Source of the DNA: Rhizobiaceae bacterium CPCC 101076
GTDB taxonomy: Bacteria > Pseudomonadota > Alphaproteobacteria > Rhizobiales > Methylopilaceae
Length of the DNA: 64,000 bases
Assembly: GCA_003347645.1 (NCBI GenBank)
Contig: QDFX01000006.1
Span: 62,001-126,000 of the forward strand
Direction of reading: 5' to 3'
This document shows, one piece after another, positions 46,291 to 57,473 of the stretch. The notes under the pieces were generated by a model. That model was not told where the DNA came from. It worked only from the letters and a program-made list of their open reading frames with translations, and searched no databases. Made by a program: the position numbers and the translations under genes. Position 1 is the first letter of the stretch, and each line of letters begins with the position of its first letter.

Positions 46291-47043
46291 ATGCTGTCGA
46301 TCAAGAACCTGTACGCCCGTATCGAGGACAATGGGCAGGAGATCATCAAGGGCCTCAATCTGGAGGTTCCGACCGGTCAGGTCCATGCGATCATGGGTCC
46401 GAACGGCTCGGGCAAGTCGACGCTCTCCTATGTCCTGGCCGGCAAGGAAGATTACGAGGTCACCGAGGGTTCGGTCGAACTCGACGGCGAGGACCTGCTC
46501 GAACTCGAAGCCGACGAGCGCGCCAACAAGGGCGTCTTTCTCGCCTTCCAGTATCCGCTGGAGATCCCGGGCGTCGGCACGATGACCTTCCTCAAGGCCG
46601 CCCTCAATGCCCAGCGCCGCGCCCGCGATGAGGGCGAGATCTCGACCCCTGACTTCATCAAGATGGTTCGCCAGCATGCGAGCGATCTCGGCATCGACCA
46701 GGATATGCTCAAGCGTTCGCTGAACGTCGGCTTCTCTGGCGGCGAGAAGAAGCGCGCCGAGATCCTCCAGATGTCGCTGCTCCAGCCGAAGCTCGCGATC
46801 CTCGACGAGACGGATTCGGGCCTCGACATCGATGCGCTGAAGGTCGTCTCGGACGGCGTGAACCGTCTGCGTTCGCCGGACCGTTCCTTCGTCGTGATCA
46901 CGCACTATCAGCGCCTCCTGAACTACATCAAGCCGGACGTCGTCCACGTGATGTCAAAGGGCCGGATCGTCCGTTCGGGCGGCCCGGAACTCGCGCTCGA
47001 GCTCGAGAAGAACGGCTACGCCGAGTACGTGGAGGCCGCCTGA
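46291..47043 (+). CDS. sufC: Fe-S cluster assembly ATPase SufC
   Basis: SufC is the ABC-type ATPase of the SufBC2D complex. The 250-residue protein has Walker A (MGPNGSGKST), the FSGGEKKRAEIL signature and Walker B (LAILDETDSGLD), followed by the H-loop in VITHYQRLL. It has no membrane domain partner, as expected. gagga precedes the ATG. Its stop overlaps sufD's ATG by one base (TGATG). Confidence 0.98.
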   Translation: MLSIKNLYARIEDNGQEIIKGLNLEVPTGQVHAIMGPNGSGKSTLSYVLAGKEDYEVTEGSVELDGEDLLELEADERANKGVFLAFQYPLEIPGVGTMTFLKAALNAQRRARDEGEISTPDFIKMVRQHASDLGIDQDMLKRSLNVGFSGGEKKRAEILQMSLLQPKLAILDETDSGLDIDALKVVSDGVNRLRSPDRSFVVITHYQRLLNYIKPDVVHVMSKGRIVRSGGPELALELEKNGYAEYVEAA

Positions 47044-48350
47044 TGAACACGGCGGTTCGCCCCATCAAGACGGCGGCCGAGAACGCGCTTGTCGAGCAGT
47101 TCACGGCGGCCAAGGCTCGCCTTCCGGGCAACCGGGATGCGCGTGAGAAGGCATTCGGCGCGGTTGTCGAAGGCCTCCCGCATCGCCGCGTCGAGGAATG
47201 GAAGTACACCGATCTGCGTGCGCTGATGCGCGACGCGAAACCGCTCGCCGACCTGCCGACTGACGCGCAGGTCGCGGCCGTCGATCGCAAGCGCGTCCTG
47301 ACCTCGTTCGACGCATCGAAGATCGTCTTCGCGAATGGCAGCCTGATCGAGAGCCTGTCCGATCTCGGCAAGCTGCCGGCTGGCGTTGAAGCCGTGTCGC
47401 TGGCCAAGGCCTATGCCTCCGATCTTCCGCTGCTGGCCCGCTTCGGCGAGGCCGAGGCACCGGAGGACAATGCCGCGATCGCGCTCAATACCGCGTTCGT
47501 TTCCGACGGCGTCCTCATCAGGATCGCGGCCGGCACGAAGGTCGACCGGCCGCTTCATCTGGCGTTCGGCCAGGATGGCGAGGGCCATGCGTCCTATGCG
47601 CGGATCCTGATCGTGGTCGAGGACGACGCCAAGGTCGAGATCGTCGAGAGTCATTTCGGCGAGGGTCATCACCAGACCAACTCCTATGTGGAGCTTCTGG
47701 CCGGTGACCGGACCGACATCAACCTCATCAAGCTGCAGGCGGAATCGCTCGACACCCAGCATCTCGCCACTCTGGCGATCAAGCTCGGCGCCGAATCCTC
47801 GCTCCAGACCGTCGCCGTCGCGCGCGGCTCTGACGTCGCCCGCCAGCAGGTCTTTGTGAAGTTCGAGGGCGACAACACCAAGGCGTCGCTGAATGGCATC
47901 TCGCTGTCCGGCGCGCGCCGTCATCTCGACACGACCTTCTTCGCCGATCACGCCAGCTATGGCTGTGAGAGCCGCGAACTGTTCAAGTCGGTGCTGGACG
48001 GCGATAGCCGGTCGGTGTTCCAGGGCAAGATCCTGGTCCGCCAGAATGCGCAGAAGACCGACGGCCGGATGATGAGCCGGGCTCTGATGCTTTCGGAAGG
48101 CTCGGAAGCCGATCTCAAGCCGGAACTCGAGATCTACGCCGACGACGTCCAGTGCGCGCACGGTGCGACCTGCGGCGCGCTCGACGAAGACCATCTGTTC
48201 TACCTGATGGCCCGCGGCATTTCGAAGATCGACGCACAGGCCATCCTGGTTGAGGCGTTCGTCGGCGAAGTGCTCGACATGGTCGAGGACGAAGGTCTGA
48301 AGGACGCGTTGGCGGTCGTGACCAACAGCTGGCTGATGGCACGGGATTGA
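47043..48350 (+). CDS. sufD: Fe-S cluster assembly subunit SufD
   Basis: SufD pairs with SufB. This 435-residue protein has the SufBD beta-helix core. RRVEEWKYTDLRALM near the start is typical of the family, as are RQQVFVKFEGDNTKASLNG, HASYGCESRELFKSVLDG and RSVFQGKILVRQNAQKTDG. The C-terminal CAHGATCGALDEDHLFYLMARGI carries the His important for iron entry. It is coupled to sufC. A repeat-rich 155-bp gap follows. Confidence 0.97.
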   Translation: MNTAVRPIKTAAENALVEQFTAAKARLPGNRDAREKAFGAVVEGLPHRRVEEWKYTDLRALMRDAKPLADLPTDAQVAAVDRKRVLTSFDASKIVFANGSLIESLSDLGKLPAGVEAVSLAKAYASDLPLLARFGEAEAPEDNAAIALNTAFVSDGVLIRIAAGTKVDRPLHLAFGQDGEGHASYARILIVVEDDAKVEIVESHFGEGHHQTNSYVELLAGDRTDINLIKLQAESLDTQHLATLAIKLGAESSLQTVAVARGSDVARQQVFVKFEGDNTKASLNGISLSGARRHLDTTFFADHASYGCESRELFKSVLDGDSRSVFQGKILVRQNAQKTDGRMMSRALMLSEGSEADLKPELEIYADDVQCAHGATCGALDEDHLFYLMARGISKIDAQAILVEAFVGEVLDMVEDEGLKDALAVVTNSWLMARD

Positions 48351-48356
48351 TGGTTG

Positions 48357-48489
48357 CCTCTCCCAATGGGAGAGGTCGGCTCATCGCGGCAGCGATGGCC
48401 GGGTGAGGGGACAGACTTATCGAGGGGACATACCCCTCACCCCGCTCAAACCTGCCGGTTTGAGTCGGCCCTCTCCCCTGGGGAGAGGG
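48357..48489. repeat. CTCTCCC/CCTCACCC modular hairpin repeat, copy A
   Basis: This array of inverted repeats sits between sufD and sufS: cctctccca/tgggagagg (48357-48375), gggtgagggg/cccctcaccc (48401-48410 with 48433-48442), ctcaaacc/ggtttgag (48445-48464) and ccctctcccc/ggggagaggg (48469-48489). It shares its module order and ends with copy B at 51520-51653. No protein is encoded. It may act as mRNA-stabilising stems within the suf operon. Confidence 0.75.
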
Positions 48490-48505
48490 TTGGAAAGGCC
48501 GAGTT

Positions 48506-49753
48506 ATGAACGCACCTGTCCTGACCAAGACCATGGGCTATGACGTCGAAACCGTGCGCCGCGATTTCCCGGCGCTGTCGCTCGACGTGCACGGCAAGCC
48601 GCTCGTCTATCTCGACAACGGTGCCTCGGCTCAGAAACCCAATCAGGTGCTCGACGCGATCCGCCATTCCTACGAGGCGGAATACGCGAACGTTCATCGC
48701 GGACTTCATTACCTCGCGAACGCAGCGACCGAGGCCTACGAAGGTGCGCGCGAGGCCGTACGCGGCTTCATCAACGCCGCCTCGACAGACGAAGTGATTT
48801 TCACCCGTTCCGCGACGGGAGCGATCAATGCCGTCGCGTCAAGCTTCGGCCGTATGGCCATCGGACCCGGCGACGAGGTCGTCGTCTCGATCCTAGAGCA
48901 CCACTCCAACATCGTGCCGTGGCACTACCACCGCGAACGGAACGGCGCGGTCCTCAAATGGGCGCCGATCCAGGACGACGGCACATTCGATCTCGACGCC
49001 TTCGAAGCGCTGCTCGGGCCGAAGGTGAAGATCGTTGCACTGACCCATATGTCGAACGTCACGGGTACGATCACGCCGGTGAAGGACATCATCCGGCTTG
49101 CCCATGCGCGCGGGATTCCCGTCCTGCTCGACGGCAGCCAGGCGATCGTCCACATGCCGGTCGATGTGCGCGACCTCGATGTAGACTTCTACGTCTTCAC
49201 CGGTCACAAGCTTTACGGCCCGACCGGCATCGGCGTGCTCTACGGCAAGCGGGAATGGCTCGAAAAGATGCCGCCCTATGAAGGTGGCGGCGAGATGATC
49301 CGCGACGTGACCACGGACACGGTCACTTACGCCGGCCTGCCCAACCGCTTCGAGGCCGGCACGCCGCCGATCGTCCAGGCGGTCGGTCTCGGCGCCGCGA
49401 TCAAATATGTCGAGGCGCTCGGCCGTGAGAACATCTACGCCCACGAGCTTCGCCTGCGCGACTACGCCCACAAGAAGCTGGGCGCGATGAATTCGGTCAG
49501 GATTTTCGGCACGACGGAGCAGAAGGGCGCGATCGTCTCCTTCCAGCTCGAAGGCGCGCATGCCCATGACGTCGCAACCGTGCTGGACCGCCAGGGCGTC
49601 GCGGTGAGGGCAGGGACGCATTGCGCCCAGCCGCTTCTGCAGCGTTTCGGCGTGACCTCGACCTGCCGTGCAAGCTTTGGCCTCTACAATACCGAGGCCG
49701 AGATAGATACATTGGCTGTAGCGCTTGAGAAGGCGCACAGCCTGTTCTCGTGA
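48506..49753 (+). CDS. sufS: Cysteine desulfurase SufS
   Basis: SufS supplies sulfur to SufBCD. The 415-residue group II enzyme has VYLDNGASAQKPNQVLDAI, NVHRGLHYLANAATEAYEGAR and FTRSATGAINAVA. FTGHKLYGPTGIGVLYGK bears the PLP lysine, and VRAGTHCAQPLLQRFGV the catalytic Cys in a short loop that normally needs a SufE or SufU partner. No sufE is in the window. ggaaagg precedes the start. It is the second desulfurase of the cluster. Confidence 0.96.
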   Translation: MNAPVLTKTMGYDVETVRRDFPALSLDVHGKPLVYLDNGASAQKPNQVLDAIRHSYEAEYANVHRGLHYLANAATEAYEGAREAVRGFINAASTDEVIFTRSATGAINAVASSFGRMAIGPGDEVVVSILEHHSNIVPWHYHRERNGAVLKWAPIQDDGTFDLDAFEALLGPKVKIVALTHMSNVTGTITPVKDIIRLAHARGIPVLLDGSQAIVHMPVDVRDLDVDFYVFTGHKLYGPTGIGVLYGKREWLEKMPPYEGGGEMIRDVTTDTVTYAGLPNRFEAGTPPIVQAVGLGAAIKYVEALGRENIYAHELRLRDYAHKKLGAMNSVRIFGTTEQKGAIVSFQLEGAHAHDVATVLDRQGVAVRAGTHCAQPLLQRFGVTSTCRASFGLYNTEAEIDTLAVALEKAHSLFS

Positions 49754-49762
49754 GACCCGATG

Positions 49763-50140
49763 ATGAGTGATACCGCCTCCGCGACCCCGAATGCTGCCGA
49801 GCTGAACGGGCCGTCGACCCTGCCGCCCGAGGAACTCGATCAGCTGGCGCAGGACATCATCGGCGCGCTCAAGACCGTCTACGATCCGGAAATCCCGGTC
49901 GACATCTACGAGCTCGGCCTAGTCTACAAGATCGACGTCAGCGATGATCGCGATGTCGCGATCGACATGACGCTCACGGCTCCGGCTTGCCCGGTCGCGG
50001 CCGAGATGCCGGCTTGGGTCGAGAACGCGGTTGGCGCCGTTCCCGGCATAAACGGCGTGAAAGTCAGCATGACTTTCGAGCCGCCATGGGACCAGAGCCG
50101 CATGTCGGACGAGGCGCGCGTCGCGCTCGATATGTGGTGA
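49763..50140 (+). CDS. sufT: SUF system Fe-S assembly protein SufT (DUF59/MIP18)
   Basis: This 125-residue protein has a Pro-rich N-terminus and a DUF59 domain with IGALKTVYDPEIPVDIYELGLVY, TLTAPACPVAAEMPAWVENAV and VSMTFEPPWDQSRMSDEARVALDMW. The Cys in ACPV is the functional one in the MIP18/SufT family, which helps mature Fe-S proteins. Two ATGs in a row (49760 and 49763) could start it. In many relatives a sufA-like gene follows; here an NlpD-like gene does, and no sufA is seen in the window. Confidence 0.94.
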   Translation: MSDTASATPNAAELNGPSTLPPEELDQLAQDIIGALKTVYDPEIPVDIYELGLVYKIDVSDDRDVAIDMTLTAPACPVAAEMPAWVENAVGAVPGINGVKVSMTFEPPWDQSRMSDEARVALDMW

Positions 50141-53210: not shown

Positions 53211-53319
53211 GTATCAGTACGTCCCGGGAAGTCTCGTTTGCTTTCCGGGGGTCTATCGCTATAGTCCCGGCCGCTTCGCAGGCGGCCGTCTGCGATCCCG
53301 CTATCTCATGGAGTTTTCG

Positions 53320-53655
53320 ATGTTCATCTCGCCTGCTTTTGCCCAGGGCGCCATCGGCGGGGCGGAAGGCAACTTCCTGCTGAACATCATGCCGTTCCTG
53401 CTGATTTTCGTTATCATGTATTTCCTCGTGATCCGTCCGCAGCAGAAGCGCCTGAAGTCCCATCGCGAAATGGTCGGCGGTGTCCGCCGTGGCGACACGA
53501 TCGTCACCTCGGGCGGCTTGATCGGAAAGATCACGAAGGTCGTGGACGAGACCGAAGTCGAAGTGCAGATCGCCGATAATGTCCGCGTGCGCGTCGCCCG
53601 CGCGATGATCAATGAAGTCCGCGCCAAGGGCGAACCCGTCGCCAACGACGCCTGA
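53320..53655 (+). CDS. yajC: Preprotein translocase accessory subunit YajC
   Basis: YajC joins SecDF at the Sec translocon. The 111-residue protein has one membrane helix (about 20-40, IMPFLLIFVIMYFLVIRPQQKRLK) and the cytosolic domain with LVIRPQQKR, VRRGDTIVTSGGLIGKI and IADNVRVRVARAMI. The ATG at 53320 with ggag six bases upstream is preferred to that at 53308. It is followed by secD after 16 bp and secF after a further 11 bp. Confidence 0.96.
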   Translation: MFISPAFAQGAIGGAEGNFLLNIMPFLLIFVIMYFLVIRPQQKRLKSHREMVGGVRRGDTIVTSGGLIGKITKVVDETEVEVQIADNVRVRVARAMINEVRAKGEPVANDA

Positions 53656-53671
53656 GGCGTAACACTTTTCC

Positions 53672-55276
53672 ATGCTGCACTATTCGCGGACTAAGACGAT
53701 TCTGACGCTCCTGGTGGTCGCACTGGGACTGCTTTTCGTCGTGCCGAATCTTCTGTCGCCGCAGGCACGCGCCAGGCTTCCGAGCTTCCTGCAGAACACG
53801 ATCGTGCTCGGCCTCGACCTTCAGGGCGGTTCGCACATCCTGCTGGAAGTCGACGCCCAGGCGCTCCGGAACGAGAAGCTCGAGGCGCTCCGCGATCAGG
53901 TGCGCACCGCTCTCCGCGATGCCCGCATCGGCTATACCGGTCTCGGCAATGCCGGGCAGGGGGTGCAGGTTCGCCTGCGCGACGTCGCCGATCTTCAGGC
54001 GGCGACGACGAAGCTTCGCGAACTGCGCAATCCGATCTCGTCGTCACTGCTCGGCAATACCGGGCAGTTCGATCTCGACGTGACGAACACGCCGGACGGC
54101 TTGGTCACGCTGACGCCGACCGAAGCCGGCGTCGACGCGCGCATCCGCTCCGCCGTCGACCAGTCGATCGAGATTGTCCGCCGCCGCGTCGACGAACTCG
54201 GCACGACGGAACCGAGCATCCAGCGTCAGGGTGCTGACCGCATCCTCGTCCAGGTGCCAGGCCTGCAGGACCCGCAGCGTCTTAAAGAACTCATCGGCAC
54301 CACCGCCAAGCTGACCTTCCGCATGGTCGACGTCACAATGCCGGTGCAGCAGGCCGAGGCGACGCGTCCTCCGCCGGAATCCGAAATTCTGGTCGGTGCC
54401 GAAAACCCCAACGAGAAATACCTCGTCGAGAAGCGCATTCTGGTCGCGGGCGAAGACCTCGTCGACGCGCAGCCGGGCTTCAGCCAGCAGACCAACGAGC
54501 CGATCGTCTCGTTCCGCTTCAATTCGAACGGCGCCCGCCGCTTCGCCACCGCGACGCAGCAGAACGTCGGCAAGCCGTTCGCTATCGTTCTCGACAACAA
54601 GGTGATCTCGGCGCCGCGCATCAACGAGCCGATCACCGGCGGCTCGGGCCAGATCTCGGGCAGCTTCACGGTCGAGAGTGCGAACAATCTTGCGATCCTG
54701 CTCCGCGCTGGAGCGCTGCCCGCACCACTGACCGTCGTCGAGGAGCGCACGGTCGGTCCGGGCCTTGGCCAGGACTCGATCGATGCTGGCACCAAGGCAA
54801 CGATCTATGCCGCGATCTTCGTCGTGATCTTCATGTTCGCGACCTACGGTACGTTCGGCCTGATCGCAAACATCGCTTTGATCATCCATGTCGGCCTGAT
54901 CTTCGGCTTGATGTCGCTGATCGGCGCGACGCTCACGTTGCCCGGCATCGCCGGCATCGTCCTGACCATCGGCACGGCGGTTGACTCGAACGTGCTGATC
55001 TACGAGCGCATCCGCGAGGAATTCCATTCCGGCCGCTCTATGGTGTCGGCGATCCAGGCCGGCTTCGAGCGCGCGTTCGCCACCATCGTCGACTCGAACT
55101 CGACCATGGCCATCGCCGCCGTCATTCTGTTCCTGCTGGGTTCCGGCCCGGTGAAGGGCTTCGCCGTCGTCTTCGTCCTCGGCATTCTCACGACTGTGAT
55201 CACGGCCGTGACGATGACCCGTATGATGATCGCGCTCTGGTACCGCTGGACGCGGGCCAAGGCCCTGCCGTTCTGA
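53672..55276 (+). CDS. secD: Protein translocase subunit SecD
   Basis: SecD uses the proton gradient to pull exported proteins out of the Sec channel. The 534-residue protein has an N-terminal membrane helix, a large periplasmic part with GLDLQGGSHILLEVD (about 47-61) and RRRVDELGTTEPSIQRQGADRI, and a C-terminal membrane domain with TIYAAIFVVIFMFATYGTFG, GTAVDSNVLIYERIREE (conserved D and R) and ATIVDSNSTMAIAA. It is in one operon with yajC and secF. Confidence 0.98.
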   Translation: MLHYSRTKTILTLLVVALGLLFVVPNLLSPQARARLPSFLQNTIVLGLDLQGGSHILLEVDAQALRNEKLEALRDQVRTALRDARIGYTGLGNAGQGVQVRLRDVADLQAATTKLRELRNPISSSLLGNTGQFDLDVTNTPDGLVTLTPTEAGVDARIRSAVDQSIEIVRRRVDELGTTEPSIQRQGADRILVQVPGLQDPQRLKELIGTTAKLTFRMVDVTMPVQQAEATRPPPESEILVGAENPNEKYLVEKRILVAGEDLVDAQPGFSQQTNEPIVSFRFNSNGARRFATATQQNVGKPFAIVLDNKVISAPRINEPITGGSGQISGSFTVESANNLAILLRAGALPAPLTVVEERTVGPGLGQDSIDAGTKATIYAAIFVVIFMFATYGTFGLIANIALIIHVGLIFGLMSLIGATLTLPGIAGIVLTIGTAVDSNVLIYERIREEFHSGRSMVSAIQAGFERAFATIVDSNSTMAIAAVILFLLGSGPVKGFAVVFVLGILTTVITAVTMTRMMIALWYRWTRAKALPF

Positions 55277-55287
55277 GAGGTTGAACC

Positions 55288-56229
55288 GTGCGTCTTCTGC
55301 GCCTTTGGCCTGAGAACAGCCATTTCCCGTTCATGAAGTGGCGGCGGGTGACGTTCCCGCTGTCCGCGATCATGTCGCTCGTCATCCTCGGCCTGTTCTT
55401 CCTGCATGGGCTGAATTTCGGCATCGACTTCCGCGGCGGCACGCTGCTGGAACTGCAGGCGAAATCCGGCACGGCCGACGCCGCGCAGGTGCGCGAGCAG
55501 TCCAACGCGCTCGGCTTCGGCGAGGTCGAGGTGCAGGAATTCGGCGGGCAGGGCAGCCTGTCGCTCCGCTTCCCGATTCAGGAAGGGGGCGAGGCGGCTC
55601 AGAGCGCGGTCGTGCAGAAGGCGCGCGACACGTTCGGCCAGGCCTATGATTTCCGCCGGGTCGAGACGGTCGGCCCGCGTGTGTCGGGCGAGCTCGTCCA
55701 GGCCGGCACGCTCGGCGTCGTGCTCTCGCTCGTCGCCGTGCTCTGCTACCTCTGGTTCCGCTTCGAGCGCAATCTGGCGACCGGCGCGCTGATCGGCACG
55801 CTTCACGACGTGCTTTTGACCGTCGGCTTCTTCGTCGTCACCCAGCTCGAGTTCAACATGACCTCGATCGCGGCGATCCTGACGATCGTCGGCTATTCGC
55901 TGAACGAGACCGTCGTCGTGTTCGACCGTACGCGTGAACTGCTTCGCCGCTACAAGAACATGCCGGACGAGGAGCTGCTGGACCTGTCGATCAACACGAC
56001 CATGTCGCGCACCGCGATCACCGCGATGACGACCTTCCTGGCGCTGCTGGCACTCGTCCTGTTCGGCGGCGAGGCGATCGAGGGCTTCGCGATCGTCATG
56101 CTCGTGGGCATCGTGATCTGCACCTATTCGGCGATCTTCGTCTCCTCGCCGTCGCTGATCTATCTCGGCCTGCGCCAGAGCGAGACCCAGCGCGCCGCTG
56201 CCGCGAAGACCGTTGCAGCCAAGCCCTGA
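55288..56229 (+). CDS. secF: Protein translocase subunit SecF
   Basis: SecF is the partner of SecD. The 313-residue protein begins at GTG 55288 behind gagagg. Features include FGIDFRGGTLLELQ (the periplasmic GIDF-x-GG motif), ALIGTLHDVLLTVGFFV, ILTIVGYSLNETVVVFDRTRE and TAMTTFLALLALVLFGGEAI, with six membrane segments in all. The next gene starts four bases after its stop, an arrangement kept in many alphaproteobacteria. Confidence 0.98.
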   Translation: MRLLRLWPENSHFPFMKWRRVTFPLSAIMSLVILGLFFLHGLNFGIDFRGGTLLELQAKSGTADAAQVREQSNALGFGEVEVQEFGGQGSLSLRFPIQEGGEAAQSAVVQKARDTFGQAYDFRRVETVGPRVSGELVQAGTLGVVLSLVAVLCYLWFRFERNLATGALIGTLHDVLLTVGFFVVTQLEFNMTSIAAILTIVGYSLNETVVVFDRTRELLRRYKNMPDEELLDLSINTTMSRTAITAMTTFLALLALVLFGGEAIEGFAIVMLVGIVICTYSAIFVSSPSLIYLGLRQSETQRAAAAKTVAAKP

Positions 56230-56232
56230 CCT

Positions 56233-56625
56233 GTGGCGGGCGCTCGCTACGAAGGGTTCTTTCCCGGCCGCGCTTTGCTCGATGCCTATGGCAATGGCGG
56301 CTTCCGCTTCGCGGAGATGTCGCATCGCGGCTCGATCATCTGTCTGCCGAGCGGCATCTGGGCTTGGCCTCCGGTCACCGCCGCCGACATCGACGCCAAA
56401 TCGCTGCGGCGGGCGATGGATGAGGCCCCGGAGATCGAGATGCTGCTGATCGGCACCGGTGACGTGCATGTGCCGTTGCCGATGCCTCTCCGGGAAACGC
56501 TGAAGGCGTCCGGGCTTCGGGTCGATATTATGGCCACGGGAGCGGCGGCGCGGACCTACAACGTTCTTCTTTCCGATCAGAGAAAGGTTGCGGCGGCGCT
56601 GATCGCGGTCGAAAACGCGCGATGA
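56233..56625 (+). CDS. Mth938-like protein (NDUFAF3 homologue)
   Basis: This 130-residue protein starts at GTG 56233, four bases after secF. It belongs to the Mth938/DUF498 family, with RYEGFFPGRALLDAYGNGGFRF, GSIICLPSGIWAWPP, LLIGTGDVHVPLP and MATGAAARTYNVLLSDQRKV. The mitochondrial homologue NDUFAF3 is a complex I assembly factor, and gene order next to secF led to that link. Here it is followed at once by an NDUFAF6-like gene (four-base overlap). A role in complex I assembly is inferred from homology. Confidence 0.93.
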   Translation: MAGARYEGFFPGRALLDAYGNGGFRFAEMSHRGSIICLPSGIWAWPPVTAADIDAKSLRRAMDEAPEIEMLLIGTGDVHVPLPMPLRETLKASGLRVDIMATGAAARTYNVLLSDQRKVAAALIAVENAR

Positions 56626-57473
56626 TGGACACCGCCGCTTATTGCCAGGAACTGGTCCGCGACGAGGACCGGGACCGTTTCCTGACGACCCTGTTCGCGC
56701 CCGACGAGCGACGGCAGGCACTCTATGCGCTCTATGCCTTCAACACCGAACTGGCGCGTGTCCGCGAAAGCGTCAGCGATCCCATTCCCGGCGAAATCCG
56801 GCTGACCTGGTGGCGGGAGGTTTTCGAGGGGTCACGCAAGGGCGAGGCAGAGGCTCATCCGGTCGCTCGGGCGCTGCTTTCCGCGATCCATGACAACCGC
56901 CTGCCGTTCGAGCCGTTCATCCGAATGACGGAGGCGCGGGTGTTCGATCTCTACGACGACCCCGTGCCGACCGTGGGCGATCTCGAAGGCTATGCCGGCG
57001 ACACATCCTCGGCGCTGATCCGGCTCGCCTCGATCGTCCTTACGGGAGGGGAGGAGCCGGGGGGCGCAGCCGCTGCGGGGCATGCCGGCGTCGCTTATGC
57101 GATCACCGGCCTGCTGCGCGCCTTTCCATTCCATGCGCAGCGTGGCCAGATATTCGTCCCGGCCGAGGTGCTGGCGCGTAACGGCGTCGGCCGCGAGGAC
57201 GTGCTGTCTGGCAGGACCACGCCCGAGATTCTCGCGGCGCTGAAGGAGATGCGCGAGCTCGCCTGGCGTCACCTCGATGCCGCGCGCGCCGCGATGACGG
57301 GCGTCGACGGCCAGGCACTGGCAGCGTTCCTGCCGGGCGCTCTGGTGGCGGGTTATCTCAAGCGAATGGAACGACGCGACTACGACCCGTTCCGCACACC
57401 GGTCGAGGTGCCGCAATGGCGGCGTCAATGGACGCTGTGGCGCGCGGCAAGCAGGAGCCGGCCGCTGGGGTAA
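56622..57473 (+). CDS. Squalene/phytoene synthase-fold protein, NDUFAF6-like
   Basis: This 283-residue all-helical protein overlaps the previous gene by four bases (ATGA). The fold is that of squalene/phytoene synthases, but the first Asp-rich motif reads FNTELARVRESVSDP and the second GYAGDTSSALIRLAS, so the metal-binding DxxxD sets are incomplete. LTWWREVFE and AFPFHAQRGQIFVPAEVL are shared with NDUFAF6, a complex I assembly factor. It is therefore probably not a prenyl synthase. Its role in NDH-1 assembly is inferred from family and from the NDUFAF3-like neighbour. Confidence 0.87.
   Translation: MMDTAAYCQELVRDEDRDRFLTTLFAPDERRQALYALYAFNTELARVRESVSDPIPGEIRLTWWREVFEGSRKGEAEAHPVARALLSAIHDNRLPFEPFIRMTEARVFDLYDDPVPTVGDLEGYAGDTSSALIRLASIVLTGGEEPGGAAAAGHAGVAYAITGLLRAFPFHAQRGQIFVPAEVLARNGVGREDVLSGRTTPEILAALKEMRELAWRHLDAARAAMTGVDGQALAAFLPGALVAGYLKRMERRDYDPFRTPVEVPQWRRQWTLWRAASRSRPLG

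Follow-up and report, generated by a model that had tools for sequence, protein, structure and literature searches.

An aspartate-less prenyl-synthase-fold protein encoded with a DUF498 protein behind yajC-secDF: probable assembly factors of native complex I

Directly downstream of yajC, secD and secF, two genes raise the question of whether an operon for membrane insertion also encodes assembly factors of complex I, as a first-pass annotation had proposed from their likeness to human NDUFAF3 and NDUFAF6, or whether the second gene encodes a squalene/phytoene synthase, as its automatic label says. Within the window (the whole stretch of 64,000 nucleotides analysed here), yajC-secD-secF are followed by AF3 and then AF6, all on one strand (Table 1). 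Both proposed reading frames were confirmed, with their GTG and ATG starts, the gap behind secF and the four-nucleotide overlap: three nucleotides (CCT) separate the end of secF at 56229 from the AF3 GTG at 56233, and the AF3 stop codon TGA (56623-56625) shares four nucleotides (ATGA) with the AF6 ATG; translation of AF6 could alternatively start at another ATG, at 56625. The earlier wording that the two are fused into one translational unit holds for the unit of transcription and translation and fails for the products, AF3 and AF6 being two proteins. A few kilobases 5' of yajC, the window also carries suf-type Fe-S cluster genes (SufBD core, class-V aminotransferase and FeS_assembly_P; 47043-50140).

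Table 1 Features of the yajC-secDF-AF3-AF6 locus, in positions of the window
Feature	Position	Strand	Basis
yajC	53308..53655	+	PF02699 E 3.5e-28
secD	53672..55276	+	SecDF_P1_head + SecD_SecF_C
secF	55288..56229	+	PF02355 E 9e-60
AF3, DUF498/Mth938-fold protein, NDUFAF3-type	56233..56625	+	130 aa, GTG start; PF04430 E 2e-30
AF6, putative squalene/phytoene-synthase-fold pseudoenzyme, NDUFAF6-type	56622..57473	+	283 aa, ATG; PF00494 E 1e-63
AF6 residues 40-54 (FNTELARVRESVSDP), replaced first Asp-rich motif (enzymes DDxxD)	codons 56739..56783	+	alignment
AF6 residues 60-66 RLTWWRE, AF6 hallmark (most relatives RLQWWRE)	codons 56799..56819	+	alignment
AF6 residues 163-172 (GLLRAFPFHA), replaced second Asp-rich motif (enzymes ILRDxxED)	codons 57108..57137	+	alignment; HMMER alignments to 4hd1, 5iys, 8is6

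AF3 scored 105.4 bits against the PF04430 DUF498 cut-off of 33, and its solved relatives include 2fi9 (E 3e-34) and 2fvt (E 4e-31). The sole human-named relative in the profile search of the PDB was C11orf67 (2ab1, E 7e-5); no chain named NDUFAF3 or NDUFAF6 was found by profile or stood among the fold matches listed.

AF6 is predicted to adopt a trans-prenyl-synthase fold: its AlphaFold model (mean pLDDT 95.4) matched the CrtM-like synthases 8isa and 8is6 with Z scores of about 30, 8isa being the best among the matches listed (Z 30.1, rmsd 2.4 over 270 residues). At the five positions of the catalytic Asp residues of the enzymes, the alignment places A45, R46, E49, A167 and H171, that is, 0/5 Asp. 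All five were present in 43/43 enzymes of a 108-row alignment, while its 65 AF6 rows had none (54 rows), one (10 rows) or two (1 row). The hallmark R-L-Q-W-W-R was widely shared among these rows, with W64 in 65/65 and Q62 in 53/65; the window has T62 (codon 56805-56807). Residue 62 presumably corresponds to Q99 of human NDUFAF6. Q99R is listed as a human disease mutation in a table of PMC4992684. In a quick tree calculated without the motif columns, all AF6 rows fell on one side of a branch with an SH-aLRT of 99. They number 65 and not 69 because L241, L242, L246 and L286, trimmed or partial pieces without the first motif, were placed among the enzymes.

The best NCBIfam match of AF6 was HpnD, at 133.7 bits against a cut-off of 278.6, while HpnC reached 60.6 against 250.45, and the score stayed well under the cut-off of each curated enzyme model matched. 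AF6 has the SQS_PSY domain without DxxxD motifs that characterizes the NDUFAF6 family. The window's genome contains three PF00494 genes, namely AF6, hpnC and hpnD, of which the latter two adjoin hpnE; nuoC, nuoD and nuoE are present as well. Since hpnC, hpnD and hpnE all pass their NCBIfam cut-offs in this genome, squalene synthesis should not need AF6. A role as a working prenyl synthase was rejected on the Asp motifs, the NCBIfam cut-offs and the separate hpnCDE genes, and the sequence supports the view that AF6 is not such an enzyme. The first-pass annotation was therefore correct that the Asp-rich motifs are missing and that a prenyl-synthase label misleads (0/5 Asp, a clade of its own, separate hpnCDE), and the automatic label is corrected here. 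The point about the label is right, yet not new for the family: passages of PMC8007014 already describe NDUFAF6 orthologues without DxxxD motifs and use four bacterial orthologues as an outgroup.

In the ten non-alphaproteobacterial genomes checked, the best match to AF6 was an intact DDxxD enzyme. Several such enzymes (L312, L319-L322, L324 and L325) combine intact Asp motifs with a KLxWW-type stretch; they may be the intact enzymes most closely related to AF6. At two other loci (L252 and L261, genomes G437 and G500), HpnD- and HpnC-like matches share a single open frame of ~580 aa.

The arrangement of the locus was then compared across 143 genomes of the class (Alphaproteobacteria by inference), 78 of which have AF3. 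secF lay within 150 bp upstream of AF3 in 71 of the 78, and 50 had AF6 downstream in the same orientation, at a distance of up to about 4.5 kb, plus one locus (L060) missed through start choice; the spacing of AF3 and AF6 was under 50 bp in only five. In many other orders, opposite-strand genes lie between the two, by eye a superoxide dismutase-like gene and one for a PuuD-like membrane protein. In the window's own order (Hyphomicrobiales, inferred from named relatives), AF6 followed AF3 within 200 nt in 40/41 genomes, counting those with a listed AF3 place and thus leaving out the AF3-positive G231; since this tight order is the rule there, the window locus is an ordinary member. One scan retained 80 named loci; in these, AF3 was upstream on the same strand in 79 and within 120 nt in 74, and SecF or SecDF lay no more than 200 nt from AF3 in 77. 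The counts of 40/41 and 79/80 argue that the AF3-AF6 arrangement is not due to chance. Variants were also seen: SecD and SecF share a single frame ahead of AF3 in family f32 (L076, L103), and in family f29 (L070, L084) AF3 comes straight after a YajC-like gene, secDF being absent from the neighbourhood. The 2009 work of Saada on NDUFAF3 is said to have noted the bacterial gene order with secDF; in the literature searched, NDUFAF3 and SecF never appeared together as whole words in one paper.

The distribution of both genes was compared with that of complex I. NuoD was present in 128 of the 143 class genomes (121 above the curated cut-off), absent from 13 and represented by weak matches only in 2. 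The 128 positive genomes comprised 69 with AF3 and AF6, 9 with AF3 only, 19 with AF6 only and 31 with neither, so that AF3 or AF6 occurred in 97/128 genomes with NuoD and in 0/15 with none or weak matches. AF6 was found in 88/143 genomes, assigned by profile score and, in borderline cases, by reading the motifs, whereby a strongly diverged AF6 could be missed. The 31 NuoD-positive genomes with neither factor were mostly ≤2.4 Mb, with two exceptions of 3.0 and 3.9 Mb, and the E. coli control had NuoD and lacked both families; neither factor is thus needed for every complex I. Across the phylum (299 genomes), 162 of the 163 genomes with AF3 had NuoD, while the 136 without AF3 divided into 91 with NuoD and 45 with none or weak matches only; Fisher tests on such co-occurrence counts ignore shared ancestry. 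The sole genome with AF3 (L310) and no NuoD is a 1.5 Mb draft (G163). For AF6, the link to complex I claimed at the outset stands as a strong phylogenetic profile, limited by the 31 genomes that lack both factors.

A finer comparison was possible in family f19 (110 genomes, 77 genera), in which complex I types are mixed. This family is probably Acetobacteraceae, because PMC4596401 describes acetic acid bacteria with no nuo operon, with one or with two, of which one may have been acquired by transfer. NuoD scored above its cut-off in 98/110 genomes, and NuoC was fused to NuoD in 18/18 suspected loci that were read and separate in 13 controls (12 from f19 and 1 from the window's genome). The genomes were typed as separate (87, seven of which also have a fused copy; for those not read gene by gene, score and frame length decided the type), fused only (11), none (9) and undecided drafts (3; G428, G435 and G478). 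AF6 was present in 85/87 genomes with separate NuoC and NuoD, including all seven with both types, and in 0/11 with fused NuoCD only and 0/9 without complex I, borderline matches having been read individually (19 + 2). The three drafts have AF6, and two of them (G435, G478) are fragmented with weak NuoD matches only. In the 20 genomes without AF6, every match was a DDxxD enzyme, and all have HpnC/HpnD-type enzymes. A search for AF6 in G463, with separate Nuo, found none, and in G474, with native-type nuo, AF6 is a broken remnant with in-frame stops (L269). AF3 was found in only 3/110 genomes (two above the cut-off).

From its presence in the separate type and its absence from the fused-only type and from genomes without complex I, we conclude that AF6 tracks the native, mitochondrial-type complex I and is indifferent to the E. 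coli-type one, a pattern more in keeping with a dedicated assembly factor than with an enzyme of metabolism. Across the phylum, AF3 too is associated with complex I, yet lineages can do without it while retaining AF6 and native complex I. Two broader ideas were rejected along the way, namely that AF6 is a general NDH-1 factor (it is absent from E. coli and from fused-only genomes) and that AF3 and AF6 are strictly paired (f19 has AF6 and almost no AF3, and the class has genomes with either alone). The link between AF6 and complex I type was not found in the literature searched, which does not include key subscription papers. Bacteria of the f19 kind, with native complex I, NuoCD, both or none, offer a direct test ground for the role of NDUFAF6.

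Overall, we consider it probable, with good confidence, that AF3 and AF6 help to assemble native complex I, the mitochondrial type in which NuoC and NuoD are separate. AF6 would be a catalytically dead trans-prenyl-synthase fold that split once from its enzyme relatives, in or before Alphaproteobacteria, and was probably retained to bind or chaperone a hydrophobic partner around NuoH and the Q module, while AF3 would be a small chaperone of Mth938 fold acting on the Q module. The position of the two genes behind yajC-secDF would most simply mean that both proteins are made together with the membrane-insertion machinery. We infer both orthology with human NDUFAF3 and NDUFAF6 and the binding partners; the homology first claimed stands as family membership and in published statements. 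In the literature, NDUFAF3 is placed at the Q module (review table of PMC10910544; likewise PMC6056716) and NDUFAF6 at the PP module (PMC10910544) or, probably, at the Q module (PMC6056716), an evolutionary-rate study groups NDUFAF3 and NDUFAF6 with C2orf56 (PMC3436739), and both NDUFAF3 and NDUFAF6 underlie severe complex I disease in humans (PMC6056716).

Other readings of these data differ in weight. AF6 might still be an enzyme or ligand binder of prenyl diphosphates whose altered chemistry, for example as a phosphatase, feeds quinone or hopanoid metabolism. Its predicted fold is intact over the full length, and a cavity fold without Asp motifs can retain other activity; the Bacillus protein YisP, a phosphatase with this kind of changed chemistry, was among the structural matches (3we9, Z 25.1). 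We nevertheless regard this as quite improbable, given 0/5 Asp, the absence of hpn genes among the scanned neighbours in the window and the presence of AF6 in step with complex I type and not with hopanoid genes, as in the 20 AF6-less f19 genomes. Loss of AF6 along with native complex I could also simply follow from shrinking genomes or from the shared ancestry of acetic acid bacteria: class genomes without Nuo are small, and the 20 f19 genomes without AF6, which fall in 15 genera, may have this state by descent. This is unlikely, however, because 8/11 fused-only f19 genomes measure 2.2-3.7 Mb, several separate-Nuo genomes of 1.9-2.9 Mb have AF6 (among them G116, G413, G017 and G438), and the seven genomes with both complex I types retain it.

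The significance of the secDF neighbourhood is more evenly balanced. The membrane insertion step suggested by the first-pass annotation is an inference, as is the appealing idea that AF3 and AF6 would act together with SecDF when it inserts NuoH. The secF-AF3 adjacency is strongly conserved in the class; AF6 is often parted from AF3, and most of f19 has complex I and AF6 without AF3. There is close to an even chance that AF3 and AF6 share no function with SecDF, the order being an inherited neighbourhood or a co-expression unit of housekeeping membrane genes. AF3 adjoins secF in only 1/8 loci examined outside the class (L316, of a non-alpha family), and opposite-strand genes part AF6 from AF3 in many orders, which favours this reading, whereas an adjacency found in 71/78 class genomes and again in L316 looks long-lived. 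A fuller version of the assembly-factor reading, tentative and less likely than not, holds that AF6 was made once from a hopanoid-type synthase, serves only native complex I, became useless and was lost on the swap to E. coli-type NuoCD, acts where SecDF-YajC inserts NuoH, and was inherited by mitochondria as NDUFAF6.

Compared with known systems, AF3 shares PF04430 with NDUFAF3 (C3orf60) and the Mth938-DUF498 family, of which NDUFAF3 acts on the Q module according to the reviews cited above, while the human-named PDB relative reached by its profile is C11orf67 and not NDUFAF3. Similar to NDUFAF6 (C8orf38) and fungal NDU1, AF6 combines an SQS_PSY fold with lost Asp motifs (described in parts of PMC8007014) and a tie to complex I; unlike them it is bacterial and lies in a secDF operon, the likeness being drawn from family membership and published descriptions. 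The CrtM-like dehydrosqualene synthases (8is6, 5iys and 2zco) resemble AF6 in fold over the whole length (Z 27-30) and differ from it in identity, at 13-19%, and in the Asp motifs replaced in AF6. HpnD and HpnC are alike in fold and overall sequence, HpnD being the best NCBIfam match, whereas AF6 remains under the HpnD cut-off, has lost all five Asp and occurs beside a separate hpnCDE set in the same genome.
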